Part shown: positions 11,561 to 36,362 of the stretch, piece by piece
Numbering within the stretch: the first letter of the stretch is position 1
How the letters are laid out: each line of letters begins with the position of its first letter
Origin: Frankia alni ACN14a
Lineage (GTDB): Bacteria; Actinomycetota; Actinomycetes; Frankiales; Frankiaceae
Reading direction: 5' to 3'
DNA length: 64,000 bases
Assembly (NCBI RefSeq): GCF_000058485.1
Contig: NC_008278.1
Location: forward strand, 1,296,962-1,360,961
Made by a program: the position numbers and the translations under genes
The notes under the pieces: generated by a model
What the model saw: the letters and a program-made list of their open reading frames with translations, nothing else
Databases searched by the model: none
Told to the model about the DNA's origin: nothing

Positions 11561-11568
11561 GATCCGAA

Positions 11569-11574
11569 ACCCTA
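11569..11574 (-). promoter_or_regulatory. -10-like box, leaderless rmlA
   Basis: TAGGGT ends 8 nt before the rmlA ATG, with no ribosome binding site between. Confidence 0.42.
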
Positions 11575-19391: not shown

Positions 19392-21374
19392 ATGGGACGG
19401 CACCGCTCGGATGACCCGGACGGCGACGCCGATCGCCCGGCCACCCTGGCAACCGCCCGGTGGCTTGTGCTGGGGGTCGCCGCGGCCGGGCTGATCTTCA
19501 GTTCGCTGGGGCTGCTGGTCGCCGCGGTGGTCCCGCCGTTCACCGGGGCCGACGAGGCGCAGCACACGGCGTACGCGCTCGAGCTCGCCCACGGCTCGCT
19601 GCCTCGGCTCGACACCCCGGTGCGCTCCCGGGTACCCGGCATGCCGGGCCTGCCGGCGAGCTGCCGGGCCGCACCCGCGCAGACCAGAGCCGCGGTCGAC
19701 GCGCATGCCGACGGGCTGTGCGGGGTGCGCCTCGGTCGGGGACTGTCCAACTTCGACCTGGTCTACACCGCCAACCACCCGCCGTTGTTCTACGTGGTGG
19801 AGGCGGTGCCGCTGGGGGCCGGCGAGGCGGCGGGCCATCCGCTGGCCGGCTTTCGTGCCGCCCGCGCCGTCAACGTGCTGCTCGGTGTGGGCGTCGTCGT
19901 CGCGACGGCGGCGTTGTGCCGCGGGCTGCTGCCGGACCGGCCGGGCCTCGCGGTGGGGGCGGCGGCGGTCATCGGGGCCGTCGGGCTCGTCGTCGTCACC
20001 TCCGGACAGATCTACAACGACACCCTGGCGATGGCGACCGTGACGGGGCTGCTCGCGGTGACCGTCGCCCTCGCCCGCGGTGGGCCGCGCCCGCGGATCC
20101 TCGTGGGTCTCGCGATGCTCGGGCCGGCCGCGGCGGCCAGCCGCGCGAGCGGCGCGGTGGCGCTCGCCGCCGTGGTGCCCGCCGTCGCCGCCGCCGTGGC
20201 GCTGCACACCACGGGAAGCCGCACCCGCCGGGCCGGCCGGGGCCTGGCCACCGCTGGTGCGCTGCTCGCCCTCACCGTCGCCGCCGTCGGCTGGTTCTAC
20301 CTGCGTAACCAGCGCCTTTACGGCGATCCCACCGCCTCCGGGCGGATCGCGCAGATGTTCCCGCTCGGCGGGGCGCACCCCTCGGTCTGGCAGGTGCTGC
20401 GCGACGGTGATCTGTGGTGGTACGTCTACCGCGGGTTCTTCGGCCGGCCCACACTCGTCACCGGTCACGCCGAGCAGGTCGCCGTCGGCGTCGCGGTGGT
20501 CACCGGCGCCGGTCTGGCCGCAGCGGCCCTGCGCGCGGCCACCCGGCGCCGGTCCGGAGAGGCTGCCCCCGGACCGTCCGCAGCCGGCCCGGGCGGCAGC
20601 AGCGAGAACGGCAGCAGCGGGAACGGCAGCAGCGGGAACGGCAGCAGCGGGAACGGCAGCAGCGGGAACGGCAGCAGCGGGAACGGCAGCAGCGGTGGCG
20701 TGGTCCTCGGGTGGCTCCTGGTGGCCGCGCACTGTTTGCTCGTCGTCGCCACCCTGGTGGGTTACGTGGCCGCGGGTGGGGCGTCGTTCACCCGTTACCT
20801 GCTGCCGATGGCACCGGTGCTCGCGATCGGTGTCGCCGCGTCCTGCCGAGCCCTGCCGCTGGGTCGGCGCGGGCTGCCGACGCTGGCCGTCGTCGCGGCG
20901 ATGACGGCCTGCACGGTGGTGCTCGTCGGGCGGGAGCTGGCCTGGAAGCGGCCTGCGCTGGCGCCGCTCGCCCTGCCCGACCGGCTGCGCGCCGGCTGGG
21001 CGCTGGGCGGACCCGGCTCGGCGCGGGTGGGCCTGGTGGTCCTGGCGAGCTGCGCGGTCGCGGGCGGGGCGCTGCTCGCCGCCGCCCTAGGGAAGCTCGG
21101 CGACCCGGCGGTAGACGGCCGCGGTCAGCTCCGCGGTGCGCCGCCAGGTGAAGGTGCGGGCGTGGGCGCGGCCCGCCTCGACGTCGCCGGGGGAGGCGAG
21201 CAGGGCGAGGATCGCCTCGGCGAGCTCGTCGGCGAAGGAGTCCCGGCCGGCCTGACGGACCAGCCGCACCGGGCTGCCGACGGCCTCGACGAGGGCTCCG
21301 GTGACCTCGCGGACGGTCGGGATGTCGGCGGCGACGACGGGGGTACTGGCGGCGAGCGCCTCCAGGGGCGGTAG
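19392..21374 (+). CDS. Polytopic membrane protein, GT-C / DUF2142-like
   Basis: 660 residues as the frame runs. About 11-12 membrane helices, with D54-E55 in ADEAQH in the first extracytoplasmic loop, the same motif as the proteins at 8438 and 36559. A cytosolic or loop linker holds seven GSSGN pentapeptide repeats. The ATG at 19392 has GGGGG 6 nt upstream. Oddity: the hydrophobic protein ends near codon 565 (about 21086), but the frame continues 288 bp as a polar tail antisense to the next glycosyltransferase gene. The tail may be a lost stop codon. Confidence 0.75.
   Translation: MGRHRSDDPDGDADRPATLATARWLVLGVAAAGLIFSSLGLLVAAVVPPFTGADEAQHTAYALELAHGSLPRLDTPVRSRVPGMPGLPASCRAAPAQTRAAVDAHADGLCGVRLGRGLSNFDLVYTANHPPLFYVVEAVPLGAGEAAGHPLAGFRAARAVNVLLGVGVVVATAALCRGLLPDRPGLAVGAAAVIGAVGLVVVTSGQIYNDTLAMATVTGLLAVTVALARGGPRPRILVGLAMLGPAAAASRASGAVALAAVVPAVAAAVALHTTGSRTRRAGRGLATAGALLALTVAAVGWFYLRNQRLYGDPTASGRIAQMFPLGGAHPSVWQVLRDGDLWWYVYRGFFGRPTLVTGHAEQVAVGVAVVTGAGLAAAALRAATRRRSGEAAPGPSAAGPGGSSENGSSGNGSSGNGSSGNGSSGNGSSGNGSSGGVVLGWLLVAAHCLLVVATLVGYVAAGGASFTRYLLPMAPVLAIGVAASCRALPLGRRGLPTLAVVAAMTACTVVLVGRELAWKRPALAPLALPDRLRAGWALGGPGSARVGLVVLASCAVAGGALLAAALGKLGDPAVDGRGQLRGAPPGEGAGVGAARLDVAGGGEQGEDRLGELVGEGVPAGLTDQPHRAADGLDEGSGDLADGRDVGGDDGGTGGERLQGR
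20595..20699. repeat. 15-bp tandem repeat encoding GSSGN
   Basis: Seven 15-bp units (GGCAGCAGCGGGAAC; first and last diverged) in frame within the membrane protein gene. Near-perfect identity suggests recent slippage expansion and likely strain-to-strain length variation. Confidence 0.92.
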
Positions 21375-22223
21375 GCCGAAACCCTCGTAGCGGGAGGGGA
21401 AGCACAGCACGCCGGCGCCCGCGACCGTCGCCCGAAGCTGCTCGGCGTCGAGGTAGCCGGCGGTGACGACGCTGCCGGCAGGCAGTCCGGCGAGGTCGAG
21501 GGTCGGTCCCCACCCCGGCGGTCCCACGAGGACGAGCGGGGGAGCGCCGAGCTTCGCCGCGTGCAGCCGGCGGACGGCCTCCAGCAGGACCGGGAGGTTC
21601 TTGCGGGGCTCGACCGAGCCGACGAAGAGCAGGTACCGCTCGGGCAGGCCGTGGGCCCGCTTCCAGGCGGCCGTCGGCGCCGGGGTGGTGAACCAGGCGT
21701 CGTCGACGCCGAGCGGGGTGGGGGTGACCAGCGCCGGGTCCAGCCGGTAGGCGGTGATCACCTCGTCGGCGACGGCCCGGCTCGGCGTGAGCACGGCGTG
21801 GGCACGGCGCAGCCCGCGGGGAACGAGATCGCTGTAGCGGGCGGAGGCAGCCGTGACCGTGTCCGGGGTCCGCAGGTAGGACAGATCGTGGATGGTGAGC
21901 ACGCCGCGGGCACGGCGCAGCGGCGGCAGCACGAAGTTGGTCCCGTGCACGACGTCCGCGGCGCCGGTCAGCCATTCCACTGGTGGCTGCTCGCCGCGGA
22001 TCCAGGCGTCCTGGAGCAGCCGCGCCGGCGCCCGGCGGGCCGCGGGGCGCACCCCCGCCGGCAGGCTGGCGGCGAGCTCGTCGAGCCCGCGCCAGGTGAA
22101 CGCCGTCGCCGCCAGCTCCCAGGACGCGTCGAGCCGGGCGAGGCCGGCCAGCAGGTGCTCGGTGTAGCGGCCGACGCCGGTGCGCCGCCCGAGCAGCGGC
22201 GTGCCGTCGAGCACGATCCTCAT
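21087..22223 (-). CDS. Glycosyltransferase family 4
   Basis: 378 residues, GT-B fold. The N-terminal acceptor domain starts DGTPLLGRRTGVGRYTEHL. The C-terminal donor domain has VGSVEPRKNL and the retaining GT4 motif FPSRYEGFGLPPLEALA. It probably adds mannose, rhamnose or a similar sugar from NDP-sugar at the inner membrane face. ATG 22223 has GGGAG about 8 nt upstream. It follows the 22274 gene on the same strand by about 50 bp and overlaps the tail of the convergent membrane gene by 288 bp. Confidence 0.88.
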   Translation of the reverse strand: MRIVLDGTPLLGRRTGVGRYTEHLLAGLARLDASWELAATAFTWRGLDELAASLPAGVRPAARRAPARLLQDAWIRGEQPPVEWLTGAADVVHGTNFVLPPLRRARGVLTIHDLSYLRTPDTVTAASARYSDLVPRGLRRAHAVLTPSRAVADEVITAYRLDPALVTPTPLGVDDAWFTTPAPTAAWKRAHGLPERYLLFVGSVEPRKNLPVLLEAVRRLHAAKLGAPPLVLVGPPGWGPTLDLAGLPAGSVVTAGYLDAEQLRATVAGAGVLCFPSRYEGFGLPPLEALAASTPVVAADIPTVREVTGALVEAVGSPVRLVRQAGRDSFADELAEAILALLASPGDVEAGRAHARTFTWRRTAELTAAVYRRVAELP

Positions 22224-22273: not shown

Positions 22274-23893
22274 TCAGCCCTGGTAGAGCCGGCGGCGCTC
22301 GGCGATGTCGCGCCACTGGTCGGCGAACGCGTCGTCCGAGAAGGTCTGGGCCCGCTCGACCGCCGCGGCCGCGAGCCGGCCGCGCAGGCCGTCCTCGGCG
22401 GCGAGCCGGCGGGTGAACGAGGCGACCTGCTCCGGTCCGGTCCACCGGTAGCCGTCGACGCCGTGGCGGACGATCTCCCGCTGCCCGGCGCGGTCGATGA
22501 CGACGGGCACGCAGCCGCCGGCCATCGCCTCGACGGTGGTCATCCCGAAGTGCTCCGCCGTCCAGGGCCGGCGTCGGTCGTCCTCGCCGTACCCGGTCGC
22601 CGACCAGAACACGGAGCTGGTCGACAGCAGCTGCTCGACCTGAGCTCGCGGGGCGTTCGGGTGGACCTGCACCGGCAGGCCGGCCCCGGCGGCGCGGACC
22701 TGCTCCAGGTAGGGCCGCTGGGACTCCTCGCAGCCGCCGACGACGTGCATCGTCCAGCCCGGCAGGTCGCCGGCCCGGTAGAGCTCACCGAACCACTGCA
22801 CCATCTCGAGCTGCCGCTTGGCGTGCCCGAGGCCCGGCATGAAGAACCGCCCGACGGTGACGACGGCCTTCTCCCGGGCCGGCGCCGGGTGCAGCCGCTG
22901 CACCTGGATCGGGGGGAAAAGCACGTCGGCGTCGCGCTTCCACAACCGCCGGATCCAGCCCCGGGTGAACTGCGAGTTGGCCATGACCACGTCGTAGCCG
23001 TCGAGGTAGGCCAGGTCCGCCGGGTCGCGCAGCAGCCAGGGGAAGCGCAGCGGCAGGCGGGCGATCGGTCCCTCGTCGCCGTCGGTGACCCGTGGCCGGC
23101 TCACCGCGACGCCGAGTTCGCGCACGTCCGCGGCACCCGGCGAGAACGCGTCGCTGACCAGGGTGAGCTCGGTGCCGTCGGTGGTCGGCGGCAGCGGCAC
23201 CTCGAACGGGGCGAAGTCGGCGCCGATCTCCAGCTTGGCCAGCACCCCGCCGCCGGCGTCGAGGACCCGCAGCGACGTGCCGGCGGGCGCGCCCGGACGG
23301 CCGATGTCGGCGCGCAGGGTGCGCCGCTGACCCGGGCTGACGGCGAGGATGCCCGACCCGTTCGTCCAGGTCCACTGCCGGCGACGGCCGCCCTCCGGCG
23401 GGTACCAGCCCTGGCCGAAGCTGACCGCCGGGCGGACCCCGCGCAGCAGGGGGCCGGCGGTGCGCACCGCGGCCTTGCGCCAGGCCGCCATGTCGTGGTC
23501 GAACGGAGTCGGGAAGAAGCACAGGTACGCCGAGCGGCGGGACTGCGGCGCGATGCGGCTCATGTACGAGCCGTTGACGAACAGGTCGTAGCTCGCGGAC
23601 AGTGCCGCGATGGCCTCCTCCCCGCGGTCGGGCAGCCGGACGTAGCGGCAGCCGGCGAGATCCAGGCCGAGATGGCTGCCGAGCTGGTCGAGGTCGACCT
23701 CGGAGTGCCCGAGGATGTCGACACTCGCGCCCTCGGCCGCCAGCACCTGGGCGATCATGCCGTTGTGGCGTTCCCCGCCGCCCATCGAGTGCCAGAACCG
23801 GTTGTAGACGGCGGCCCGCACCCCCCGCGCCGGCCGCTCGTCGGGGCCGACGGCCGCGGCGGGATCCGTGGCGCCGCTCGCGCGTTCGCTCAT
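22274..23893 (-). CDS. Glycosyltransferase (GT4-like) with inserted beta-rich domain
   Basis: 539 residues. The N-terminal Rossmann part (RAAVYNRFWHSMGGGERHNG) and the C-terminal donor domain (VGRFFMPGLGHAKRQLEM; EHFGMTTVEAMAGGCVPVV) are GT4-like. An insert of about 105 residues (about 160-265) has W/T-rich beta strands and ends in DVRELGVAVS. Its ATG overlaps the stop of the upstream GT2 gene (ATGA), so the two are translationally coupled. It probably extends the glycan exported by the neighbouring ABC transporter. Confidence 0.87.
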   Translation of the reverse strand: MSERASGATDPAAAVGPDERPARGVRAAVYNRFWHSMGGGERHNGMIAQVLAAEGASVDILGHSEVDLDQLGSHLGLDLAGCRYVRLPDRGEEAIAALSASYDLFVNGSYMSRIAPQSRRSAYLCFFPTPFDHDMAAWRKAAVRTAGPLLRGVRPAVSFGQGWYPPEGGRRRQWTWTNGSGILAVSPGQRRTLRADIGRPGAPAGTSLRVLDAGGGVLAKLEIGADFAPFEVPLPPTTDGTELTLVSDAFSPGAADVRELGVAVSRPRVTDGDEGPIARLPLRFPWLLRDPADLAYLDGYDVVMANSQFTRGWIRRLWKRDADVLFPPIQVQRLHPAPAREKAVVTVGRFFMPGLGHAKRQLEMVQWFGELYRAGDLPGWTMHVVGGCEESQRPYLEQVRAAGAGLPVQVHPNAPRAQVEQLLSTSSVFWSATGYGEDDRRRPWTAEHFGMTTVEAMAGGCVPVVIDRAGQREIVRHGVDGYRWTGPEQVASFTRRLAAEDGLRGRLAAAAVERAQTFSDDAFADQWRDIAERRRLYQG

Positions 23894-25329
23894 CGCGAGA
23901 CCAGCCAGCTCTGCAGGCTCGAGCGCCGCTCGGCGGCGGTGCGGCCGATCTCGCGCCGGGCCCGCAGCATCGTGGGCAGCAGCCGCAGGTACGAGCCGCA
24001 CACCCGCAGCCGCAGCAGCGTCGGGCGGATCGCCGGCCGGCTGCGGCCCCGCCACGCCTGGCGCAGGGTGCGCAGCGCGATGGAGGCGGTCGTTGCCGGG
24101 TAGCGCAGCACCGCGGACAGCGCCAGCGCCGCCGTCGCGTCCTTGGTGAGCATCAGCAGCCGGTTGCGGTCGGTGTGGAAGACGAACAGCGGCGACCACT
24201 CGACGCTCGACGCCGAATGGATGTGCCGCAGCACCGCGCCCGGCACGTAGCGGATCGTGTACCCGCGGGCCCGGATCCGCCACGACAGGTCGGTGTCCTC
24301 GTAGTAGAGGAAGAACGCGTCGTCGAACCAGCCGAGCTCGTGGCCCAGCGACGACCGGATGGCCATCCCGTTGCCGCAGGCGGTGAACACGTCCTCCGGC
24401 TGGTCGAACTGGCCGGTGTCGACCTGCTGGTAGCCCCGGTCCGCGCCGTAGCCGTCGGTCAGCACGATCCCACCGACGTTGTTGACCACGTCGACGCGCG
24501 GCGCCTCCCCGCCGACGGTGAGTGTCACCGTCGTCGACTCCGGGCCGACGGCCAGCTCGGCCCGGCCGCCGTCGGTGGAGCCGGTCGGGCCGTCCCAGCT
24601 CAGCACGACCTGCTTGCGCGACTCCGCCGCCCAGGTGAACCCGAGGGTGACCGGCCCGCCGTCCGGGATCGGGACGCACAGCTCGCCGTCGCCGCGGGTC
24701 CAGAAGTACGGGGCCTTCGCCGGCCCCTCGGCGCCGTAGGTCAGCTTCTCCCACAGCACCTCGCGCAGCGCCTCGCGCCCGTCCACGGTCACCGACGACA
24801 CCCGCACGCCCAGCTCCCGGGAGTCGTGCGGGCCCGGCACGAAGGTGGGCGTGCTCAACCGCATCCGCAGGAAGCGGGGCAGGAACACGACCTTGCCGGT
24901 GGCGGCGCCGAGGTGCTGGCCACCGGGCTCGCCGAACGGCGCCAGCAGGGCCGCCAGCCAGCTTGGTTCGGGGACGGCGTCGTTGTTCACCAGCACCGCG
25001 TACGGCGTGGTGACCTGGCGCAGGGCGAGGTTGTTGCCCCCGGCGAAGCCGAGGTTGCGATCCGAGGGCACGACCCGCACCCAGGGGTATCGCTCGGCGA
25101 GCAGCTCCCGGGAGCCGTCCGCGGAGGCGTTGTCGACGACCCAGGTCTGGAAGGCGAAGCCGGCGTCCTGCTTGGCGATGCCGTCGAGGCAGGCAGGCAG
25201 CAGGTGTGCCCCGTTCCAGTTGACGATCACGATGGTCGCCAGCGGCTCGGCGGCCGCGCCGCCGCCCGGCCCGGCCGCGCCGCCGCCCGGCCCGGCGGCG
25301 GTGGTGCCCGTCTGCTTTCGCTCCGTCAT
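23890..25329 (-). CDS. Glycosyltransferase family 2 with inserted beta-rich domain
   Basis: 479 residues. The GT-A core begins IVIVNWNGAHLL; the donor metal motif is VNNDA and the base region is YYEDTDLSWR. These are typical of rhamnosyl- or related transferases. Between them lies an insert of about 135 residues (about 155-290) with DSRELGVRVS at its start and YFWTRGDGEL later. It contains the same two signatures as the next gene's insert, but in the opposite order. The ATG overlaps the stop of wzt (ATGA) and its own stop overlaps the next ATG, indicating one tightly coupled operon. Confidence 0.9.
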   Translation of the reverse strand: MTERKQTGTTAAGPGGGAAGPGGGAAAEPLATIVIVNWNGAHLLPACLDGIAKQDAGFAFQTWVVDNASADGSRELLAERYPWVRVVPSDRNLGFAGGNNLALRQVTTPYAVLVNNDAVPEPSWLAALLAPFGEPGGQHLGAATGKVVFLPRFLRMRLSTPTFVPGPHDSRELGVRVSSVTVDGREALREVLWEKLTYGAEGPAKAPYFWTRGDGELCVPIPDGGPVTLGFTWAAESRKQVVLSWDGPTGSTDGGRAELAVGPESTTVTLTVGGEAPRVDVVNNVGGIVLTDGYGADRGYQQVDTGQFDQPEDVFTACGNGMAIRSSLGHELGWFDDAFFLYYEDTDLSWRIRARGYTIRYVPGAVLRHIHSASSVEWSPLFVFHTDRNRLLMLTKDATAALALSAVLRYPATTASIALRTLRQAWRGRSRPAIRPTLLRLRVCGSYLRLLPTMLRARREIGRTAAERRSSLQSWLVSR

Positions 25330-26876
25330 CCGCGCAGCCTCGCCTCGTAGTCGACCTTGAGAAGCCCGTCCGCCTGCGGTCCGCTGACGCCGAACAGCTC
25401 CTCGAACCGGCGGGTCGTCACCGGGGCGCCGGTGGTGGCGTCCGAGACGTGCACCTTGACCGCGAACGCCCCGAGCAGTTCGGGCAGGTGCGGAACGGAG
25501 AAGTCCACGATGTGCCGGCCGGGGCCGACGGCGAGCCCGCCGGGGGGCGTCTCCATCATCCAGATGGGCACCTCGCTCTGCCCGACGATGTAGGTGTGCA
25601 GGTAGATCCGCTCCGGCGCGCCCTCGGTGACATCGAGCTCGACGCTGACCGTGAGCCGCTCGCCCGGGTCGTACTGCACCAGCGGCAGCCCGCCGGGATC
25701 CGGGCTGAAGGCCACCGACTGAGGGCGGACGGTGGCGTACTCCCACGACACCGGGCCCTCGGCCGGCAGGCTGCCCAGCTTCTGCCGCAGCAGCTTCGTG
25801 CCCACGGCGGGGTTGCCGTCGTAGATCAGCGAGCCCGACTCCAGCACCAGGATCCGGTCACACATGCTCTCGATGAGGTCGAGGGAGTGGGTGACGAACA
25901 GGATCGTGCGCCCCTGTGCCCGGAACTCGGCGATCTTGGCGAGGCACTTGCGCTGGAATGCCTCGTCACCGACGGCGAGCACCTCGTCGACGAGCAGTAC
26001 GTCCGGATCGACGTGTACGGCCACGGCGAAGCCGAGGCGCACGTACTGGCCGGACGAGTAGTGCTTCACGTCATCGTCGATCTTGTGTCGCAGCTCGGAG
26101 AAGTCGACGATCGAGTCGAACAGGCGGTCGATCTCCCGCTTGGACAAGCCGAGCAGCGAGGCGTTGAGGTAGACGTTGTCCCGCCCGGACAGCTCGCCGT
26201 TGAACCCGGCGCCGAGCTCCAGCAGCGACGCGATCCGGCCCTGCACCGAGACCTCGCCGCTGGTCGGACGCAGGATGCCGGCGAGCACCTTGAGCAGGGT
26301 CGACTTCCCCGAGCCGTTCGCCCCGGCGAGCCCGACCGTCTGGCCGCGCCCGATCGTCACGTCGACGTCGCGCAGCGCCCAGAAGTCGTCCCCGGCGGGG
26401 CCGCCACGGCGGACGAACCGTTCCTTCAGGCTCGTCGCCCGGTTGCTGTACGAGACGAACCGCTTGCTCACCCCGGTCCCCTGGATCACCACCGCCGAGC
26501 CGGGGGCGACCTCCCCGGGACCAACCTGCTCGGGGGCGCCGAGGGAATCGGGCGCGCCGAAGGGATCGGGAGCGCCGAAGGGATCGACTGCCCCGAGCCT
26601 GCCGGCCGGCGCCGCACCGTCCGCGCCGGAATAGCCCCAGGAGTCCGACCGACCCGGCGCCGTGGCGGCGACCTCCGGGTAGGACGGCGTGACGGGGTCG
26701 AGCGTGGCGGGGTCGAGCGCTGTCGGATCGAGCGCGCTCGGGTCCGGCGCGGTCGGGTCGAGTGCGGCGGGGCCGGCTGGCGCGGCGCCGTCGACCGGGC
26801 CGCGCGGGGCCGCGGGACGCCGCCCCCACGGCGGGGAGGCCGCACCGCGCTGGTACGCGGACGAGTGTCGGGCCAC
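25326..26876 (-). CDS. wzt: ABC transporter ATPase for polysaccharide export (Wzt type)
   Basis: 516 residues. Order: an unusual disordered N-terminal extension of about 115 residues, the ABC ATPase, then a Wzt_C-like beta domain (about 380-510). ATPase motifs: Walker A GANGSGKST, signature YSSGQYVRLGFA (modified LSGGQ, as in Wzt/TagH), Walker B VLLVDEVLAVGD, H-loop VTHS. The C-terminal domain in Wzt proteins reads the non-reducing end of the glycan. The GTG at 26876 has AAGGAG 5 nt upstream. It lies 116 bp after the permease gene. Confidence 0.93.
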   Translation of the reverse strand: MARHSSAYQRGAASPPWGRRPAAPRGPVDGAAPAGPAALDPTAPDPSALDPTALDPATLDPVTPSYPEVAATAPGRSDSWGYSGADGAAPAGRLGAVDPFGAPDPFGAPDSLGAPEQVGPGEVAPGSAVVIQGTGVSKRFVSYSNRATSLKERFVRRGGPAGDDFWALRDVDVTIGRGQTVGLAGANGSGKSTLLKVLAGILRPTSGEVSVQGRIASLLELGAGFNGELSGRDNVYLNASLLGLSKREIDRLFDSIVDFSELRHKIDDDVKHYSSGQYVRLGFAVAVHVDPDVLLVDEVLAVGDEAFQRKCLAKIAEFRAQGRTILFVTHSLDLIESMCDRILVLESGSLIYDGNPAVGTKLLRQKLGSLPAEGPVSWEYATVRPQSVAFSPDPGGLPLVQYDPGERLTVSVELDVTEGAPERIYLHTYIVGQSEVPIWMMETPPGGLAVGPGRHIVDFSVPHLPELLGAFAVKVHVSDATTGAPVTTRRFEELFGVSGPQADGLLKVDYEARLRG

Positions 26877-26992: not shown

Positions 26993-27934
26993 CTACAGAT
27001 CCTCGGCGAAGTCCGCCTGCATGGTGCGGAACACGTGGAAACCCAGCCAGAGCAGGACGAGCGAGATCGCCCCTGCGACGGCGAGATGTTCCAGGTAGAA
27101 CGTGTATCCCGGATCCGCCTGGACGGGGGTCGAGCCGGTGGAGCCACCCCCAGGATCGTAGATCGCGCGCTGGAACGTGATGACCACCACCGCCATCGGG
27201 TTGAGCAGGTACACCCAGGTCCACTCGTGCAGCCGGTTCTGGATGAGGCCGAAGGCGTAGACCATGGGGTTCAGCCAGAACCAGGCGAGCAGGGCGACGT
27301 CGAGCAGGTGGGAGGTGTCGCGGTAGCGCACGTTGAGGGCGCTGACCAGCAGCGACAGCGCGACCGTGAACGTGATGGCGACGGCCCCGGCGGGCACGAG
27401 CAGCAGCAGGTCGGCGCCGAGCAGGTTGTAGCCGAGGATCAGGATCACCACGAAAAGCACGAGCAGCTGGAGCAGGAAGTGCACGGCGGCGAACCCGACC
27501 GCCGACAGCGGGAGCACGGCGAGCGGGAACCGCACCTTCTTGACCAGGTTCGCGTTCGCGACGACGCTGCCGCACGCCGACGACACGCTGCCCGAGAAGG
27601 CGTTCCAGATCAGCAGCCCGGACATCAGGTAAATGCCGAACCGCGGAATTCCGGACTTGAGGACGATCTGGAAGACGAACGTGTAGACCACGAGCAGGAG
27701 CATCGGGTTCGCCAGCGACCAGGCGAAGCCCAGCGTGGAACCCTTGTACTTGACCTTCAGGTCCTTGCGGATGAGATTGCGCAGCAGTTCCCAACGCACC
27801 CGCGTCTGCGCCCGGCTGCGGCGGGCCAGCCGGCTCGGGTCCATCGCGTGCTGCCCAGGGCCGGGGCCCGTCGGCGGCGGGGACGGGGCCGTCGGAGCAC
27901 CCGCCGGCAGCGGAGCGTCAGCCAGATGTGACAC
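26993..27934 (-). CDS. wzm: ABC-2 polysaccharide export permease (Wzm type)
   Basis: 313 residues. A cytoplasmic N-terminus of about 55 residues is followed by about six membrane helices. Family motif KDLKVKYKGSTLGFAWSLANPM precedes helix 1 (written here as its two parts, KDLKVKYKGSTLG and FAWSLANPM). NPMVYAFGLI and YLLNPMAVVV occur between later helices. It forms the channel that moves a lipid-linked glycan across the membrane with the ATPase downstream. The GTG at 27934 has GGGGAGG upstream; the longer in-frame start at 27982 lacks a site. Confidence 0.93.
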   Translation of the reverse strand: MSHLADAPLPAGAPTAPSPPPTGPGPGQHAMDPSRLARRSRAQTRVRWELLRNLIRKDLKVKYKGSTLGFAWSLANPMLLLVVYTFVFQIVLKSGIPRFGIYLMSGLLIWNAFSGSVSSACGSVVANANLVKKVRFPLAVLPLSAVGFAAVHFLLQLLVLFVVILILGYNLLGADLLLLVPAGAVAITFTVALSLLVSALNVRYRDTSHLLDVALLAWFWLNPMVYAFGLIQNRLHEWTWVYLLNPMAVVVITFQRAIYDPGGGSTGSTPVQADPGYTFYLEHLAVAGAISLVLLWLGFHVFRTMQADFAEDL

Positions 27935-28424
27935 GGCCGGCCCTCCCCGTCCCCCGGAGATCAGGCCGCCGGTCCTCGGCACGGCGTGGCTGGAGCTGCA
28001 CCTGTCCGCTCCTCACTCGACACGACAGAGATCTGACAGTACCGAGAACCGTCGCCGGCCCGGCACGCCCCCGGGCCGGGGCAGCGCCGGGACACGCCCG
28101 CCGGACGATGCGCCCACCGACGGTGATGCGCCCACCGAGGGGTGATGCGCCCCACCGGGGGTGTCGTCCCGGTCGCGGGTGAATGGCCGACGGAGCGCAA
28201 CGGCGAACCGGACCGCTTCTCGGCAGAATCGTGACGGTACCGTGCCCGGACCGAGCCGGCGCCGCCACCCGGTCCGGTGGCCGGTGTCCGGAACGGGGTT
28301 CATAGTATCGACCCGTCCATCTGGCTTCGGCCGGCCGATGCCGCGTGGGGGATTCCCGACGTTTGGCGGCCGTCGGGGCCGACCCGGCGGAGGCGGCCAT
28401 ACCGGTCGCATGGAGAGGACGGCC
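27935..28424. other. Divergent control region between the export operon and HAD/methyltransferase pair
   Basis: 490 bp without a supported gene. On the plus strand TAGTAT (28303-28308) could be a -10 box for the HAD gene. On the minus strand TACTGT (28036-28041) could serve wzm. Three imperfect copies of GATGCGCCCACCGA lie at 28107, 28125 and 28144, spaced 18-19 bp, on one DNA face roughly every two turns, which would suit cooperative regulator binding. Confidence 0.45.
28107..28158. repeat. Three direct repeats in the divergent promoter region
   Basis: GATGCGCCCACCGA at 28107-28120 and 28125-28138, and a variant with one inserted C at 28144-28158. Candidate binding sites for a regulator of both operons. 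Confidence 0.6.
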
Positions 28425-31013
28425 GTGTTCACCGACGTCCGACTACGCGAAGTGTGGTCGCATCTGGAGTCGGGCGGGGCACAGGCCCTGACTCTCGATG
28501 TCTTCGACACCTTGTTGTGGCGCATGGTGCCCGAACCCACCCACGCGTTCGTGTTGCTGGGCCACCGGCTTGCCGACGCCGGCCACCTGCCGCCCAGCGT
28601 CTCGCCCGGGGAGTTCGCCCGGCTGCGCGTGCACGCCGAGCATGTGGCGCGGCTGCACGCCCACGACACCCGCGGCACCCACGAGGTGCGCCTGGACGAA
28701 ATCTGGCAGGTGCTGGCGCCCGCGTTGCCGGGCACCGCCGGGGTGCAGGACCTGATCGACGCCGAGGTCGCGGTCGAACGCGAACTGTGCCGGGCCGACC
28801 TCGCCGTGGTCGAACTCGCCGAACTCGCCATGACCAAGCTCGGTCTGCCGGTGTACCTGCTGTCGGACACCTACTTCTCCGCCAGCCAGCTCGAACGGCT
28901 GCTGAACCGGCCGGAGCTCTCGGGGGTGCCGTTCACCCGGATCTTCACCTCCTCCGATGCCGGGACCTCGAAGAGCGACGGGCTGTTCCAGCACATGCTG
29001 GCCGCGTCCAACCTCCAGCCGTCCCGGGTGGTCCACCTCGGCGACCATCCCGTCGCCGACGTCGAGGGCGCCCGCGAGCACGGGCTCGTCGCCATCCATT
29101 ACCCCAAGTACGCCGGATCGCTGCGGCAGACCCTCGACCTGGAGGGACTGCGCAACCAGCCCGGCGACGACGTCCCCATCGACCCGGTCGACGGCGACTT
29201 CGGGATGACGGCCCTGCGCGCCCGGACACTGCACCGCGCGGACGCCCTCGCCGTGCCCGCCGGGCTGCGCCGCTACTGGGAGACCGGGGCCACGGTGTTC
29301 GGCCCGGTCTTCGCCGGCTTCGCCGAATGGGCGGTGGAGCGGGCGCGGGACTTCGGCGCCGACCACATTTACTGCCTGATGCGGGAGGGGGACTTCCTGT
29401 CCCGCCTGCTCGTCGACCCGGGCGAGGACGTCGGCGTGTCCGTGTCGACGATGTGGGCGTCCCGGCAGGTGTGTGCGCTGTCCAACGTGTTCGAGGGCAG
29501 CCCGCAGGAGCTGAAGAGCTTCCTGGTCCGCCGGCACGCGCCGAGCGTCGGCCAGCTCCTGCGCCAGCTCGGCGTCCGGCTGGAGCACGTCGCCGGCATC
29601 TCCGCGCTGGCCGACCGGCGCCTCGACGTGCCGGGCCTGCTCGACGACACCCTCGAGGAGCTCTGCTCGGACGAGCGGATCCGCAGCGAGATCGTGCTGA
29701 CCGCCACCCGGCTGCGCGAGCGCTACGTGCGCTACCTCGACAGCCAGCTGCCGGAGACCGGTCGGGTCGTCTTCCTCGACCTGGGCTGGGGCGGCACCAT
29801 CCAGGCGCTGCTCACCCGGCTGCTGGCCTCCACCGGGCGCAAGCTGGACATCCTCGGCCTGTACCTGGCGACGAACCAGGCGGCGATGAGCCACCGGCTC
29901 GCCGGCATGGAGCTGGAGGGCTACGTGGCCTCCGGCGGGCAGCCGGAGACGATGGCCAACCAGCTCATGCGCAGCCCCGAGGTGCTCGAACAGCTCTGCA
30001 TGCCCGACGTCGGGTCGCTGGTCTCGTTCGACGAGATGAGTAACCCGGTCCTCAGCATCGACCGGACCTCGCGCACCCAGGTCGCCCAGCGCGCCGCGGT
30101 GCAGGACGGCATCCTCGCCTTCCAGCGGGAATGGCTGCGCTACCGGCGCTCGGAGACCCCGATGCCGTCGCTGGCCTCCGCCGGGGCGCGCCGCGCCGGG
30201 CTGCGCATGCTGACCCGCTTCGTCGCCCGCCCCACCGCCGCCGAGGCCGCCGCGTTCGGCTCCTGGGCCCACGACGACAACTTCGGCTCCGACGCCACCG
30301 AGGGTCTGCTGCCGCCGGAGCTCGTGCGCCGGATGCCCTACCTCACCCCGGCCGACATCGACCGCATCTCCATGCGGGAGCTGTACTGGCCGGCGGGCGT
30401 CGCCGGCGTCGCCAACCGGCCGCTCGCGGTCATCAGCGGGCTGGCCGCGGCCGCCGGCGTCCCGCCCGAGGAGGTCTCGCCGGAGGCCGCGGCCGGGCCC
30501 GTCGAGGTCTACGTCGACACCGGGGCCGACTTCGTCAACGGGGTGAAGGAGACGGCGCTGACCCGGTCGGCCCGCGACGGGCTGTCGCTCGTCCGGCTCA
30601 GCGTGGAGGCCGTCGGCGCCCGCCGCATCCGCATCGACCCGGCCGGCCGGCGCGGGCTGCTGCGGCTGGACTGGCTGACGCTGTCGTTCCACATCAACAA
30701 CATCGCCGAGCCCTACAAGGTGACCATCACCTCGCTGGACGACCCCGCCCAGCAGCTCGCGCTCGTCGGCCTGCGGCTGCTGCAGCCGAACCTGGTGGAG
30801 ATCCTCGGCGACGACCCCCAGTTCGTCTACACGATCGACCTGGCCACCCAGCCGCACCTCGCCGGGGTCTACGCGCTCGAGGTCGAGATGGCGTTCGGCT
30901 GGATGGGTATCCGGGGTGACGCGCTGATCCTGCCGGCCGCCGGCCCGGCCCGGGACGGGCTTCCCGTCCGGGCGGCCCGCAAGATCCGGCGCGAGCTCGG
31001 AGGACTGCGGTGA
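28425..31013 (+). CDS. Large HAD-superfamily protein of glycan locus
   Basis: 862 residues. The N-terminal HAD domain has motif I LDVFDTLLW (nucleophile and acid/base Asp), motif II LLSDTYFS, and motif IV HLGDHPVADVEGA. A middle domain (about 290-560) contains CLMREGDFLSR and FLDLGWGGT. A C-terminal beta-rich domain (about 680-830) is probably carbohydrate-binding. Such proteins occur in polysaccharide clusters as phosphatases or phosphotransferases of unknown substrate. GTG 28425 is preferred because GGAGAGG lies 7 nt upstream; an ATG at 28410 is possible. Its stop overlaps the methyltransferase start. Confidence 0.82.
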   Translation: MFTDVRLREVWSHLESGGAQALTLDVFDTLLWRMVPEPTHAFVLLGHRLADAGHLPPSVSPGEFARLRVHAEHVARLHAHDTRGTHEVRLDEIWQVLAPALPGTAGVQDLIDAEVAVERELCRADLAVVELAELAMTKLGLPVYLLSDTYFSASQLERLLNRPELSGVPFTRIFTSSDAGTSKSDGLFQHMLAASNLQPSRVVHLGDHPVADVEGAREHGLVAIHYPKYAGSLRQTLDLEGLRNQPGDDVPIDPVDGDFGMTALRARTLHRADALAVPAGLRRYWETGATVFGPVFAGFAEWAVERARDFGADHIYCLMREGDFLSRLLVDPGEDVGVSVSTMWASRQVCALSNVFEGSPQELKSFLVRRHAPSVGQLLRQLGVRLEHVAGISALADRRLDVPGLLDDTLEELCSDERIRSEIVLTATRLRERYVRYLDSQLPETGRVVFLDLGWGGTIQALLTRLLASTGRKLDILGLYLATNQAAMSHRLAGMELEGYVASGGQPETMANQLMRSPEVLEQLCMPDVGSLVSFDEMSNPVLSIDRTSRTQVAQRAAVQDGILAFQREWLRYRRSETPMPSLASAGARRAGLRMLTRFVARPTAAEAAAFGSWAHDDNFGSDATEGLLPPELVRRMPYLTPADIDRISMRELYWPAGVAGVANRPLAVISGLAAAAGVPPEEVSPEAAAGPVEVYVDTGADFVNGVKETALTRSARDGLSLVRLSVEAVGARRIRIDPAGRRGLLRLDWLTLSFHINNIAEPYKVTITSLDDPAQQLALVGLRLLQPNLVEILGDDPQFVYTIDLATQPHLAGVYALEVEMAFGWMGIRGDALILPAAGPARDGLPVRAARKIRRELGGLR

Positions 31014-32767
31014 CCGACCAGCGGGACCCCGAACCCGCTGCCATCGGACCGCTGAACGGCGCTGATGCCCCGAGAGCCCGGGGCGTACGGGGCGAGGGTG
31101 CCGAGCCGGACGAGCCCGCGGTGCGGGGCCCGTTCGAGGTGCGCGGTGGTCCGTCCCGCCAGTCCAGCACAGCTCCGTCCGCGGCGCCCCCGGCGGGGAT
31201 CTCCCCGGTGGCGTCCGCGACGGCGACCGACGTGGCGACACCCGCCGCGGCCGAGGCCGGCCCCGGTCCCGCGGCTGGCCCCGATCCTGCGGGCGGCCCC
31301 GATCCTGCGGGCGGCCCCGATCCTGCGGCTGGTACCGGTCCCGCGGCCGGGACCGGATCGGTGGATCCGGAGGAGCACGGCGCCGTTCGGGACAGCTTTG
31401 CCGAGCTCGCGGCCATCGCCGCCGGCCCCAACCGCGCCGGCGATGATCCTGCCGGGGCCGATCCTGCCGGGACCGATCTCGCCGGAAGCGATCGTGGCCG
31501 GACGGGGCCGGGGTCGGGCCTCGCCCGCAAGGACGATCATGCCCTCGACGTGGGCGACGCCGCCGAGCCGACGCTCGCGCCGTTGCTGCTGCACTCCCTG
31601 TCCGACCTGCGGGAGATCTGGGTTCCGCTGATCGAGGCCGCCGGCGCGCGCAGCGTGGCGGAGATCGGCTCGGAGAGCGGGGTGACCACCTCCCTGCTCG
31701 TCGACCTGCTCCGCCGCGGCGGCGGTGGTCGGCTCGTCGTCGTCGACCCGGACCCGGGGGTGGCGCCGACCTCCGGCGGCGGGCTCGACGTGCAGGTCAT
31801 CCGCGGCTACAGCCCGCAGGCCCTCGACGGCCACGCGCCGACCGACGCCTACCTCATCGACGGGGATCACAACTACGCCACCGTGCACGGCGAGCTCACC
31901 GCGATCGCCGACGCGGTCGCCCGGTTCAGCCGCTCGTACTTCCCGCTGGTGGTCCTGCACGACGTCGGCTGGCCGGCGGGGCGGCGCGACCAGTACTACA
32001 ACCCGGACCGGGTCCCCGCGGACGCTCGCCAGCCGCACTCGTGGGACGTCGGCGTCGAAATCGACGATCCCGGGGTGGTTCGCGGGGGCTTTCGCGGGAT
32101 GGGGGCGTTCGCCTGGGCGCTGACCGAGGGCGGACCGCGCAACGGGGTGCGCACGGCGATCGAGGACTTCGTCGCAGAGCATTCCGACCTGCGGTTCTTC
32201 ACGGTGGCGCCGATCTTCGGGCTGGGTGTGGTGGTCGACCGTCGGGCGCCGTGGGCCCGCCGGATCGCGGACCTGCTCACGCCGTGGGTCTCCAACCGAC
32301 TGCTGTCCCGGATGGAGCGCAACCGCGTCGACCTGTACCTGCACGTGCTGCGGTTGCAGGACGCGGCGGCGGCGATGGCCCGCGCGCGCCAGCGGGAGTG
32401 GTCCCGGCTCGACGACGAGCGCAGCCGGCTCGCCGCCCTCGAACTGGAGCACCTGCACCGCATCGGCCAGTTGGAGCACGAGCTGGCCGCCCTGCGTCGG
32501 CGCGAGGCCGAGGACGCCGAGCGCGCTGTCCACGGCCACCGACCGGCCGCCGACGCCGACGAGCCGAGGCTCCGACAGGTCGCCCGGATCGCAGGCTCGG
32601 CGCTGCGGTCCCGACTGGGCCCGACCGGGCAGGAACGGCTGGCACGGGTGCAGACCCGGATCGCCGACACCGGCACCGCCCGCACCGCCCTGCCCGCCCT
32701 GCGCCGCCGGCCGAGTGCCCCGGCGCGGGGTGGCCCGAGCGATCCGGGCGCACCCCCGCCCGGGTAG
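31010..32767 (+). CDS. SAM-dependent methyltransferase with C-terminal coiled coil
   Basis: 585 residues. A disordered leader of about 185 residues carries PDPAGG repeats. It is followed by a class I methyltransferase (about 200-400; motif I VAEIGSESGVTTSLL, and YLIDGDHNYATVHGEL typical of the CmcI/TylF-like Methyltransf_24 group). A heptad-rich coiled coil of about 75 residues (about 435-510) and a basic tail complete it. The GTG overlaps the HAD gene stop (GTGA), so the pair is coupled. Divergent from the Wzm/Wzt operon, it may modify the exported glycan. Confidence 0.83.
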   Translation: MTDQRDPEPAAIGPLNGADAPRARGVRGEGAEPDEPAVRGPFEVRGGPSRQSSTAPSAAPPAGISPVASATATDVATPAAAEAGPGPAAGPDPAGGPDPAGGPDPAAGTGPAAGTGSVDPEEHGAVRDSFAELAAIAAGPNRAGDDPAGADPAGTDLAGSDRGRTGPGSGLARKDDHALDVGDAAEPTLAPLLLHSLSDLREIWVPLIEAAGARSVAEIGSESGVTTSLLVDLLRRGGGGRLVVVDPDPGVAPTSGGGLDVQVIRGYSPQALDGHAPTDAYLIDGDHNYATVHGELTAIADAVARFSRSYFPLVVLHDVGWPAGRRDQYYNPDRVPADARQPHSWDVGVEIDDPGVVRGGFRGMGAFAWALTEGGPRNGVRTAIEDFVAEHSDLRFFTVAPIFGLGVVVDRRAPWARRIADLLTPWVSNRLLSRMERNRVDLYLHVLRLQDAAAAMARARQREWSRLDDERSRLAALELEHLHRIGQLEHELAALRRREAEDAERAVHGHRPAADADEPRLRQVARIAGSALRSRLGPTGQERLARVQTRIADTGTARTALPALRRRPSAPARGGPSDPGAPPPG

Positions 32768-33338: not shown

Positions 33339-36300
33339 TCAGCAGACCGGCTGGTAGGGGACATCGGCGATGTGCCGCTGCCATTCGGCGTCGTCGATCT
33401 GTTTCGACGGGTCGGCGCAGGCGGCGGCGATGAGGCTGGCGTCGTCGATGCGGCTGATCCGCACGGTGTAGTCGTCGCTGGCGGTGGCGATCCCGCTGCC
33501 GTCCGGTGTCCAGGCCAGGGCCTGGATCCAGTCGCCGTGCCCGTTGATCGTGCCGACCGACGCCGGTCGGCCGGTGCCGGAGACGTCCCACAGGTGCACG
33601 GTCGTGTCCCAGCCGGCGGTGGCCAGCGTCCTGCCGTCCGGGCTGAAGGCCAGGTCGAACACCCACTTCTCGTCGGCGGGGAAGGACGCGGTGGCCGCCG
33701 GGCGCGACGGGTTGGTGATGTCCCAGAGGCGGGCCGTGCCGTCGTAGGCGCCGGTGGCCAACCGCCGCCCGTCCGGACTGAACGCCACCGTCCAGACGTA
33801 GTCGGTGTGCGCGGTGATCGCCGCCAACGGCCGCGGCCGGCGCGGATCGGTGATGTCCCACAGCCGGGCGGTCCGGTCGGCGCTCGCGGTGGCCAGCAGG
33901 TGACCGTCGGGGCTGAAGGCGACCTCGTTGACCCAGCTCGTGTGCCGGTCGAGCACGGACAGCGCGGTGGGATGGCGCGGATCCGTCACGTCCCACAGCC
34001 GGGCGGTGTTGTCGTAGCCGGAGGTCGCCAGCGTCCGGCCGTCCGGACTGAACGCGGCGTCGAGGACCCAGCCGTTGTGCCCGTGGATCACGGCGAGCTC
34101 GGCGGGATGGCGGGGGTCGCTGATGTCCCACAGGATCGCCGACCGGTCGTAGCTGACCGTGGCCAGCGTCCGGCCGTCCGGGCTGAACGCCGCGTCGAGG
34201 ACCCAGGATGTGTGCCGGGTCAGGGTCGACAGCTTCACCGGATGCGCTCGGTCGGAGATGTCCCACAGCTGGACGAGGTCGTCCGCGCCGGTCGAGGCGA
34301 GCAGCCGCCCGTTCGGGCTGATGTCGACGCCGAGCGCGGAGGCCGTGTGCCCCGTGAGGACGCTGGCGGTCGCCGCGGCGAAGGAGGTGCGCAGCGCGGC
34401 GCGGGCCTCGCGCACCGGGCTGATGCGGTAGGCGGCCAGCGACAGCCGGGCGGCGAGGTCCGCGTCGGAGTTGCGCACGGCCTCGGCGGCCAGCGCCACG
34501 CGGGCCGCGGTCTCCTCCCGGCTCGGCCGCTGGCCGCCGCCCGTGGTCAGCGCCAGCGGCATCAACGCCGCGATCAGCAGCACCGCAAGGATGGGCGCGG
34601 CGAGCAGCGCGATGCGCCGCCGGTCCCACCGGCCGCGGCGCCGGCTCGGCGCGCCGGGGTCGTCCGCGGCGCCCGCACCCGCCGGGCCGGCGTCGAGGCC
34701 GCCCCGCGCCGGATCGCCGACGGCCGGGCCACGGTGGCCAGGGCCGGCGGCGGATGGCGGGCCGCCCCGATCATCGGTTGGCGGCGGCCATCCTCCCGCG
34801 GCGCCGAGGTCCGCACGTGCGGCGGCGGGGTCGCCAGGCCAGCCCTGCGCCGCCGCGCCGGGGGAGCGGTCGGGCGTGTCGAGGGCGTGGTCGGGCGACG
34901 TGGCGGGGCGGGCCGGATCGGCAGGCCGAGGCCGCACCCGGCCGGTCGGCTTGGCGCCGAGCGACGATCCGCCGCCGTCGGTCCCGGCGCGCTGGGGCGG
35001 GGCCAGCATCGGCGCCGCGGACCGGATGACGCGGGTCACGTCGGGATCGGGATGGGTCGAGGGTCCCATCCCGACCAGGCGCAGGAACAGCTCCTGCGCG
35101 GTCGGCCGGGCGGCCGGGTCCTTGCGCATCGCCTCCTCGACGATCGGGCGAAGCGCCGGGTCGAGGCCGTCGAGCAGCGGCTCGCGATGCACGACCCGGT
35201 AGAGCTGAACCGGTGTCGGGCCGTCGCCGAAGGGGAACGACCCGGTCCCCGCGTAGGTGACCAGACCGCCCCAGGCGAACACGTCCGCCGCGGCCGACAC
35301 GGGTTCGCCGTTGGCCTGCTCGGGCGCCATGAACGCCGGGGTGCCGACCCGTTGGATCTCCTGGCTCAGCATCGTCTGGGCGTCCAGCGCCCGCGCGATC
35401 CCGAAGTCGATCACCCGTGGGCCCAGGGAGGACAGCAGGACGTTGGACGGCTTGAGATCGCGGTGCACGAGACCCGCGCCGTGGATCGACGTCAGCGCCG
35501 CCGCGACGCTCACCGCGAGGCGTTCCAGGTCGGCCGAGCGCAGCGGGCCCTCCGCCGCCACGCTCTGGGCGAGGGTCAGTCCGTCGATGTACTCGGTGAC
35601 GAGGTACGGCAGCCCGTCCGGGGGGTCGACGACATCGAGCACCTCCGCGGTGCAGAACCGGGCCACCCGGCGGGCGATGTCGGCCTCGCGGCGGAACCGG
35701 GCCCGGAACTCGGGCACCCGGGCCAGGTCCGGCCGGATCACCTTGACCGCGACGAGCCGGCCCGCGTACCCGGTCACACCGGGGCGGCCCCGCCCGAGGT
35801 AGACGGTGCCCATCCCGCCCTCACCGAGCCGGCCCAGCAGCTCGACGTGGACGAGTTCCCGCGGGTCGTCGCGGTCGAGGGGCGCGACCGGGCCGCCCGG
35901 TCCCGACCCGCCCGCGGCAGCCCCGTCGGCCGCCGACGGGAGGCTCACCGGGCCGCGTGGCGCGGCCTGCGCGCCACTCGGCGGCGAAGAAGGCGCCCCG
36001 GGTGGCGGGGACGACGCCCCGGGCGGTGGCGGGGACGCTACGCCGGACGCCCCGGCGGATCCCGCACCGGCGGCGCTCGCCAACCCGGTCGCGGCGGCCA
36101 GGGCGGCGTGCGGCAGCAGGTTCGGGGGTAGCGGTGGGCTCTGGGACGGCGAGGAACGGGGCACCGGCCTGGGGGCCGCCGGGGTGGCGGGCGCTACAGC
36201 CTGAGGCGGTGTTCCCCCGACGGGCGCGGGCGTTCCCTCGAGCGGTGGGGGCGGGAACGGCACCGCGGTGGGCTGCGGCGTGGCGGCCGGGCCCTGGCCG

Positions 36301-36362
36301 GGCGGCGGCGCGGGCTGGGGTGTCTCCCCCCGCGCCCTGCCCGTCTCCCGCTTGCGGCGCAA
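33339..36362 (-). CDS. Ser/Thr protein kinase with WD40 beta-propeller
   Basis: 1007 residues. A Pro/Ala/Gly-rich leader (about 160) is followed by a complete Hanks-type kinase (about 170-430). Its motifs are GEGGMGTVYLG, VAVKVI, HRDLKPSN (about 297), DFGIA (about 317) and MAPEQ. A linker and one transmembrane helix (about 600) follow, then seven WD40 repeats ending LWDI(S/T), enough for one seven-blade propeller outside the cell. The propeller probably senses a ligand or protein. The start is the only in-frame candidate, a TTG at 36362 with GGGGGG just upstream, so the N-terminus is uncertain. Confidence 0.9.
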   Translation of the reverse strand: MRRKRETGRARGETPQPAPPPGQGPAATPQPTAVPFPPPPLEGTPAPVGGTPPQAVAPATPAAPRPVPRSSPSQSPPLPPNLLPHAALAAATGLASAAGAGSAGASGVASPPPPGASSPPPGAPSSPPSGAQAAPRGPVSLPSAADGAAAGGSGPGGPVAPLDRDDPRELVHVELLGRLGEGGMGTVYLGRGRPGVTGYAGRLVAVKVIRPDLARVPEFRARFRREADIARRVARFCTAEVLDVVDPPDGLPYLVTEYIDGLTLAQSVAAEGPLRSADLERLAVSVAAALTSIHGAGLVHRDLKPSNVLLSSLGPRVIDFGIARALDAQTMLSQEIQRVGTPAFMAPEQANGEPVSAAADVFAWGGLVTYAGTGSFPFGDGPTPVQLYRVVHREPLLDGLDPALRPIVEEAMRKDPAARPTAQELFLRLVGMGPSTHPDPDVTRVIRSAAPMLAPPQRAGTDGGGSSLGAKPTGRVRPRPADPARPATSPDHALDTPDRSPGAAAQGWPGDPAAARADLGAAGGWPPPTDDRGGPPSAAGPGHRGPAVGDPARGGLDAGPAGAGAADDPGAPSRRRGRWDRRRIALLAAPILAVLLIAALMPLALTTGGGQRPSREETAARVALAAEAVRNSDADLAARLSLAAYRISPVREARAALRTSFAAATASVLTGHTASALGVDISPNGRLLASTGADDLVQLWDISDRAHPVKLSTLTRHTSWVLDAAFSPDGRTLATVSYDRSAILWDISDPRHPAELAVIHGHNGWVLDAAFSPDGRTLATSGYDNTARLWDVTDPRHPTALSVLDRHTSWVNEVAFSPDGHLLATASADRTARLWDITDPRRPRPLAAITAHTDYVWTVAFSPDGRRLATGAYDGTARLWDITNPSRPAATASFPADEKWVFDLAFSPDGRTLATAGWDTTVHLWDVSGTGRPASVGTINGHGDWIQALAWTPDGSGIATASDDYTVRISRIDDASLIAAACADPSKQIDDAEWQRHIADVPYQPVC

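Follow-up and report, generated by a model that had tools for sequence, protein, structure and literature searches.

We propose that a gene cluster of Frankia alni ACN14a probably specifies a ribofuranose-containing envelope glycan, for which a Wzm/Wzt ABC transporter would be the exporter. A two-domain protein, here called HAD-PRT, would add the ribose, and the methyltransferase encoded next to it would methylate the same glycan, most likely at its end. The cluster lies within the 64,000 nucleotides that we analyzed (the window, to which all positions refer). If true, this means that a nitrogen-fixing plant symbiont carries a methylated, ribofuranose-containing surface glycan and that actinobacteria, too, pair PRPP-dependent ribosyl transfer with a Wzm/Wzt exporter. 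Among the matches listed for open-licence PMC titles and abstract beginnings, no title dealt with this gene set in Frankia or another actinobacterium.

The putative identities of the exporter, the methyltransferase fold and the ribofuranosyltransferase are by homology. Pfam recovered both exporter components, an ABC-2 permease and an ABC ATPase. The permease gene wzm (26993..27844, minus strand; ABC2_membrane E 7.3e-17), whose start was set at an ATG, is the only match to the Wzm profile in the F. alni genome at E<=1e-15. The ATPase gene wzt occupies 25326..26492 on the minus strand (ABC_tran E 4.9e-20), with an alternative upstream GTG start at 26876; the leading NCBIfam models for its product were TagH and galactan-type ATPases, all below their own cut-offs. 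A preliminary description had assigned both Wzm and Wzt to positions 26993-32767; wzm is indeed inside this interval, and the ATPase gene is present but outside it. On the same strand, wzt is adjoined by a GT2 glycosyltransferase gene (23890..25329; Glycos_transf_2 E 3e-17), an order kept in the Frankia loci, and two genes for group-1 (GT4-like) glycosyltransferases are found at 22274..23893 (Glycos_transf_1 E 2.3e-13) and 21087..22223 (Glyco_trans_1_4 E 7.4e-21). The HAD-PRT gene (28410..31013) and the Methyltransf_24 methyltransferase gene (31010..32767; PF13578 E 2.8e-10), the latter conserved in Frankiaceae, are on the plus strand, the stop of the first and the start of the second overlapping in GTGA. 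Gene calls and Pfam matches agree with the earlier observation that wzm is divergent from this pair.

HAD-PRT had been thought to replace the kinase of WbdD, but it resembles a different kind of enzyme, and we consider it very probably a PRPP-dependent ribofuranosyltransferase that combines a predicted phosphatase with a predicted phosphoribosyltransferase. Its profile matched Hib Bcs3 (E 1.8e-20) and Thermobacillus 7shg (E 5.5e-19), the only two proteins that it matched beyond the HAD part. Bcs3/7shg also occupied the top eight Foldseek rows for the HAD-PRT model (E 9.6e-20), and VIA gave a Z of 22.8 to 7shg over model residues 24..518, compared to 17.4 for the best HAD-only row. The AlphaFold model has a mean pLDDT of 63, and its VIA superposition on 7shg gave an rmsd of 24.1 over 431 residues, indicating that the two domains are placed differently. 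On the profile match beyond the HAD part, together with Foldseek and VIA, we rejected the kinase substitute. Such a substitute would in any case not be needed, because E. coli O8 WbdD has no kinase, according to the available text of PMC3482155.

As in the CrpP-CriT part of Hib Bcs3, going by the available portion of PMC10299916, and in Thermobacillus composti 7shg, the Frankia protein has a phosphatase and a phosphoribosyltransferase domain. The HAD phosphatase domain (28470..29117, plus strand; motifs DVFDT, SDT, K and GDxxxxD) contains the nucleophile Asp and motifs II-IV, and D33/D36/T37, S155-D156, K191, G214-D215 and D220 were invariant in nine aligned HAD-PRT rows. Its motif I, like that of Bcs3/7shg, retains the first Asp without being DxD, as far as PMC10299916 could be compared. 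In the phosphoribosyltransferase domain (29298..29954, limits approximate, plus strand), REG, SR and DLGWGGTIQ align with REG, SR and DVGWKGTIQ of 7shg, and the PRPP-loop motif is common to both proteins. Unlike Hib Bcs3, HAD-PRT is a stand-alone protein in which Pfam found no ribitol-phosphate transferase, and its model shows an additional beta-rich region near the C-terminus (30468..30920, plus strand; AlphaFold secondary structure), with a basic tail helix behind it. These motifs are not uniform across the 22 HAD-PRT rows that we aligned. The main copies of genomes L029, L115 and L116 have NR in place of SR and the loop GAS, and the phosphatase motifs are decayed in L111-L113 and in the second copies of L115, L116 and L120. 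In L111-L113, three aligned Frankiaceae genomes, motifs III and IV are lost, indicating that the gene was retained there although its phosphatase activity is probably gone.

HAD-PRT was found in 32 of 35 Frankiaceae genomes. From 30 of these 32 we recovered one short locus each, with flanks of about 1.5 kb, some ended by a contig edge: wzm was divergent in 28 loci and the methyltransferase lay downstream in 24 (in one case via a 31-bit fragment). Where a match to either was missing, the flank reached no farther than about 0.7 kb from the HAD gene. Conservation of the HAD-PRT and methyltransferase genes spans cultured Frankia strains and Candidatus Frankia meridionalis.

The preliminary description had also linked the methyltransferase to a glycan exported by Wzm/Wzt, and this part was borne out. 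Wzm was found within 10 kb of the methyltransferase family in 16 of 32 places, whereas control Methyltransf_24 genes had it that close in 8 of 91 cases. These counts are not independent (many places belong to related genera, and the profiles were built in part from some of the genomes counted), they may include TagG-like permeases matched by the Wzm profile, and they score G528 as unlinked though a Wzt lies at the contig end near its methyltransferase. In the other 16 places, several of them on short contigs, there was no Wzm within 10 kb. The full set of Wzm, Wzt, HAD-PRT and methyltransferase turns up, with its genes rearranged, in five genomes outside Frankiaceae (G381, G436, G452, G480 and G583), including other actinobacterial families, and two distant members of the methyltransferase family, in G053 and G065, are methyltransferase-coil-glycosyltransferase fusions. 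Among the HAD-PRT-positive genomes of the class examined, Wzm was within 10 kb of HAD-PRT in 7 of 7; in G156 the distance was about 7.5 kb. The count of 11 HAD-PRT genomes includes G313, where the HAD match is weak and there is no Wzm match, and leaves out L021, an Eisenbacteria MAG with a 100-residue match. In the methyltransferase tree, the 15 sampled proteins encoded beside HAD-PRT formed one branch (94/92), and 0 of 500 shuffles were as low; this tree comprised 39 chosen rows, 8 of them from Frankiaceae and all 8 among these 15, and how its rows are labeled varies with the length of the flanks. From this linkage we infer that the methyltransferase and HAD-PRT act on a shared polymer, and the methyltransferase is likely to act on the glycan of this locus.

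The methyltransferase has a predicted class I domain (31577..32254, limits approximate, plus strand; motif DGDHN), the model of which showed a COMT-type fold (VIA Z 14.3). Its fold neighbors were mostly catechol-type small-molecule enzymes, and the sugar methyltransferase MycF was among the rows tied by Z. WbdD was absent from the best 50 VIA rows, a result that still allows kinship. Searching PDB sequences with the methyltransferase profile returned weak matches to pyrroline-5-carboxylate reductase only, which we took as chance. Pfam detected only Methyltransf_24, indicating that the protein carries no known kinase or glycosyltransferase module.

A heptad-rich coiled coil had been described at about 32315-32535. 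AlphaFold did predict one continuous 80-residue helix there (residues 430-509; 32297..32536, plus strand), but its heptad-rich character was unsupported. In the full register, 218 of 400 shuffles had an a/d excess at least as large as that of the helix, whereas three control coils were equaled by 3, 5 and 9 of 400; in the same test the best 28-residue window was equaled by 270 of 400. Single-sequence heptad scores were reached by 1234 of 5000 shuffles for the whole helix, 510 for residues 458-509 and 479 for residues 430-457, and the power at period 3.5 by 429 of 5000. Column means over 11 Frankiaceae rows gave 1418 of 5000 for residues 430-495, 364 for 430-457 and 856 for 458-495. Thus, neither the single sequence, the 11-row column means nor the control-coil test revealed a significant heptad signal, although a weak one is not excluded. 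Between the ExNR motif and the first P or GG lie 63-79 residues in the 11 Frankiaceae rows and 48 in two Saccharomonospora rows, and the G381 protein stops 40 residues after the start of the motif. We consider it unlikely that this helix is a length ruler. Behind it, within residues 518-554 (32561..32671, plus strand), are two predicted basic C-terminal helices (net +1 to +5 per 18-residue window, moment at most 0.29), possibly for membrane or protein contact; a WbdD-type terminator would have an amphipathic, polymerase-recruiting end here.

The Wzt C-terminal domain, described earlier as a beta domain of the type recognizing modified glycan ends, is a conserved domain of about 145 residues (25326..25757, minus strand; five other Frankiaceae rows are 65-83% identical to the window row), but it could not be recognized as Wzt_C. 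Only one of six Frankiaceae rows touched PF14524, at a non-significant E of 0.24, whereas Wzt_C was matched by all 4 non-Frankiaceae relatives. The Frankia profile had no significant match in the PDB, and hhalign against the C-domains of the relatives gave a probability of 5.5. A mixed profile matched solved ABC-transporter C-domains at 2.5e-4; we dropped it as evidence for Frankia, since the non-Frankiaceae rows alone give this match and the Frankiaceae rows alone do not. Recognition of the glycan by this domain is our proposal.

In the mechanism that we propose, the GT2 and GT4-like enzymes would build the envelope glycan, and HAD-PRT would move ribose-5-phosphate from PRPP onto the chain and then strip the 5-phosphate, so that chain growth could continue. 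The Methyltransf_24 enzyme would methylate this chain as well; its most likely target is a sugar hydroxyl of the non-reducing end, methylated directly, and this methyl cap would stop the chain and make it fit for Wzm/Wzt export. This is in agreement with the Klebsiella O4/O7 O-antigens, for which the accessible part of PMC11231755 describes a Wzm/Wzt exporter, a stand-alone PRPP-dependent ribofuranosyltransferase and separate glycosyltransferases, all of which have counterparts in Frankia; by analogy, the locus should build a ribofuranose-containing glycan for Wzm/Wzt. The O7 terminator of Klebsiella pneumoniae, in the same part of that source, additionally bears a methyltransferase. Unlike these systems, the Frankia one is actinobacterial, its methyltransferase is without a known kinase or glycosyltransferase module or a clear coiled coil, and its Wzt C-domain is unrecognized. 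The succession of a methyltransferase and a long C-terminal helix also recalls WbdD of E. coli O8/O9a, the O8 form likewise being kinase-free in what is available of PMC3482155; the Frankia helix is without significant heptads, and the likeness is one of architecture.

A kinase-free cap, as in O8 WbdD, is our best reading by this analogy, although the chance that the product is a terminal cap falls somewhat short of even. A serious rival, itself a tentative possibility, is that the enzyme decorates internal residues, in each repeat or on a side sugar, and makes no cap. Frankia is known for 2-O-methyl-D-mannose, which the enzyme could make in a wall glycan. That the methyltransferase branch follows the sugar-specific HAD-PRT in the tree would fit such decoration, as would the Frankia helix with no significant ruler signature. 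The same applies to two Saccharomonospora genomes in which the HAD-PRT/methyltransferase pair is present but the flanks searched gave no match to Wzm, Wzt or a window glycosyltransferase; each has one weak Wzm-like match (E 2e-16 and 7e-17) outside these loci. However, 11 of 17 rows in the neighboring tree group are near Wzm/Wzt without HAD-PRT, which ties the linkage partly to export, and the fused relatives in G053 and G065 look like terminators.

Should the target of the pair not be an exported glycan but, for instance, a small molecule or a ribose intermediate linked to lipid, the catechol-type fold neighbors would fit. The Saccharomonospora loci point the same way: the called neighbor genes look metabolic by eye, with no glycosyltransferase among them (gene calling left the first 4.8 kb of L019 empty). 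This reading is nevertheless very unlikely: in Frankiaceae and five other genomes the pair sits in a glycan cluster, and MycF is among the tied rows. Hardly credible is the complete model put forward earlier, in which the methyltransferase works with a coiled-coil ruler and a HAD protein replacing the WbdD kinase. It correctly anticipated the long helix and the linkage to Wzm/Wzt, but HAD-PRT matches ribofuranosyltransferases past its HAD part, the helix failed the heptad test that control coils passed, and the stretch behind the ExNR motif varies in length and is short in the G381 protein.

Returning to the terminal cap, we put forward, tentatively, that capping precedes export in an actinobacterial system of this kind: a kinase-free Methyltransf_24 enzyme would cap a ribofuranose glycan, and an unfamiliar Wzt C-domain would read the cap. 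Nearly all Frankiaceae would have this system, and two or more further families of the phylum would share it with the genes in shuffled order. The methyltransferase branch that travels with HAD-PRT is now named, and Frankia envelope chemistry becomes testable with one enzyme assay. The G053 and G065 fusions resemble the format of the Klebsiella O7 terminator, as presented in the accessible part of PMC11231755. In G272, HAD-PRT and Wzm/Wzt are accompanied, about 1 kb away, by a methyltransferase of another kind, whose coil is heptad-positive, as though the place of the methyltransferase could be taken by a substitute.

The HAD gene (window 28410-31013, plus strand) apparently encodes a HAD phosphatase joined to a phosphoribosyltransferase (HAD-PRT), a protein that should add ribofuranose from PRPP, because it matches two ribofuranosyltransferases, the Hib capsule polymerase Bcs3 and the Thermobacillus composti structure 7shg, in profile, structure and motifs. 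With a nine-row profile, Bcs3 and 7shg scored 1.8e-20 and 5.5e-19 versus 6.5e-05 for the next HAD protein, and only these two matches extended past the HAD part. The top eight Foldseek rows for the predicted structure (mean pLDDT 63) were Bcs3 and 7shg proteins, 7shg reaching a Z of 22.8, and the motifs of both active sites were invariant across the nine rows. In HAD motif I of Bcs3, the first Asp alone is retained and serves as nucleophile (PMC10299916), and the Frankia motif, DVFDT, agrees with this pattern. The Klebsiella O4 and O7 counterparts are stand-alone proteins within Wzm/Wzt clusters (PMC11231755).

In three loci of genus group g330 (L111, L112 and L113, from G690, G688 and G685), representing 3 of the 7 g330 genomes with a HAD-PRT match, the phosphatase lacks motifs III and IV, and RSG stands in place of REG; the gene, still in place, is possibly a pseudoenzyme retained in synteny. 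L029, L115 and L116 carry NR instead of SR, and GAS in the loop. Decayed second copies adjoin intact ones (L115 ~10248-11891, L116 ~6471-8051, L120 11106-13562).

In the single-contig genome (7,497,934 bases), the Methyltransf_24 gene (31010-32767, plus strand) overlaps the HAD gene by GTGA. On the minus strand, wzm (26993-27844) and wzt (25326-26492 or longer) share a run with one GT2 and two GT4-like genes; by eye, the GT2 and one GT4-like protein (22274-25329) each seem to contain an inserted beta-rich segment. The named close relatives of the HAD gene belong to Frankia and Parafrankia, and gene order is the same wherever the loci of these two genera are long enough to reveal it. The HAD gene was found in 32/35 Frankiaceae genomes (E<=1e-20), one of the other three being only 63% complete. 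Of 30 short loci, drawn from 30 of these 32 genomes, 28 have a divergent wzm and 24 the methyltransferase downstream (one as a 31-bit fragment), misses coinciding with the end of a flank or contig; all parts are present in the longer flanks of G688 and G685. A Ser/Thr kinase-like gene with WD-like repeats (by eye; window 33339-36362), downstream of the methyltransferase, is frequently retained nearby in Frankia loci.

Across the phylum, the HAD profile was found in 5/396 genomes (E<=1e-20) and the methyltransferase profile in 11/396 (1e-15), both counts including the Frankia alni genome itself. Among 299 genomes of the class to which G381 belongs, the methyltransferase occurred in 25 (1e-25) and HAD-PRT in 7 (1e-40; G381, G272, G436, G452, G480, G583 and G521); all seven carry Wzm within 10 kb of HAD-PRT and five also the methyltransferase. 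The methyltransferase family is enriched near Wzm: 16/32 of its places have Wzm within 10 kb versus 8/91 control Methyltransf_24 genes in that set of 32 genomes (Fisher p 2.7e-6, optimistic because the sample contains related genomes), and 9/32 versus 5/91 within 5 kb. Among 11 HAD-PRT genomes outside Frankiaceae (these seven, G156, G313 and two Saccharomonospora), Wzm lies within 10 kb in 8, the methyltransferase is present in 7 and both in 5; the two Saccharomonospora genomes keep the pair with no exporter found nearby. In a 39-row methyltransferase tree, the 15 rows beside HAD-PRT form one side of a branch (94/92); in the adjacent group of 17, 11 lie near Wzm/Wzt without HAD-PRT and 6 have neither in the flank.

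The methyltransferase domain is class I with a COMT-type fold, the sugar methyltransferase MycF being among the rows tied by Z in this model comparison, and the fold suggests Mg dependence. All 13 rows compared share D284-G-D-H-N288 and H317-D318; residues 1 to ~190 are modeled with low confidence and vary in length. The 80-residue helix predicted after this domain had been proposed as a coiled-coil length ruler, which is not supported, because the Frankia helix (430-509; 218/400 shuffles) and those of two relatives, L115 (300/400) and L029 (323/400), fail a heptad test that accepted three control coils (3, 5 and 9 of 400), and the G381 protein ends 40 residues past the start of its ExNR motif, though modeling one chain and testing composition do not suffice to exclude a ruler. 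Residues 458-509 alone scored better, still not significantly (510/5000 and 100/400).

That the enzyme caps the chain terminus is a tentative reading, with a little under even chances, and it draws on the linkage to the exporter, on a Methyltransf_11-coil gene neighboring the G272 locus and on proteins of G053 and G065 in which a methyltransferase, a coil and a GT are fused. The coils of these fusions pass the heptad test, but no Wzm lies within 10 kb of them (about 1.04 Mb and 13.8 kb away). Methylation of internal glycan residues is a strong alternative, somewhat less likely than a cap; it would fit the tie to a single sugar transferase, HAD-PRT, the Saccharomonospora pairs and the missing coil signal in the Frankia helix. 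The terminal cap had also been linked to a glycan-end-recognizing domain at the Wzt C terminus: this domain is conserved among Frankiaceae but gave no recognizable match there in profile and structure-database comparisons, and in four relatives outside the family it is Wzt_C.

Several glycan-cluster proteins in L027, L029, L049 and L115, by eye methyltransferases, HAD-PRTs and sulfotransferase-like proteins, finish with a helix and an S..W(R/K)-type basic tail, perhaps a common docking module. In G521, genes that we take to be UbiA-like, DprE1-like and DprE2-like (L139 6308-9785, by eye) adjoin HAD-PRT and Wzm/Wzt, which suggests a lipid-linked pentofuranose route alongside the PRPP-direct one.
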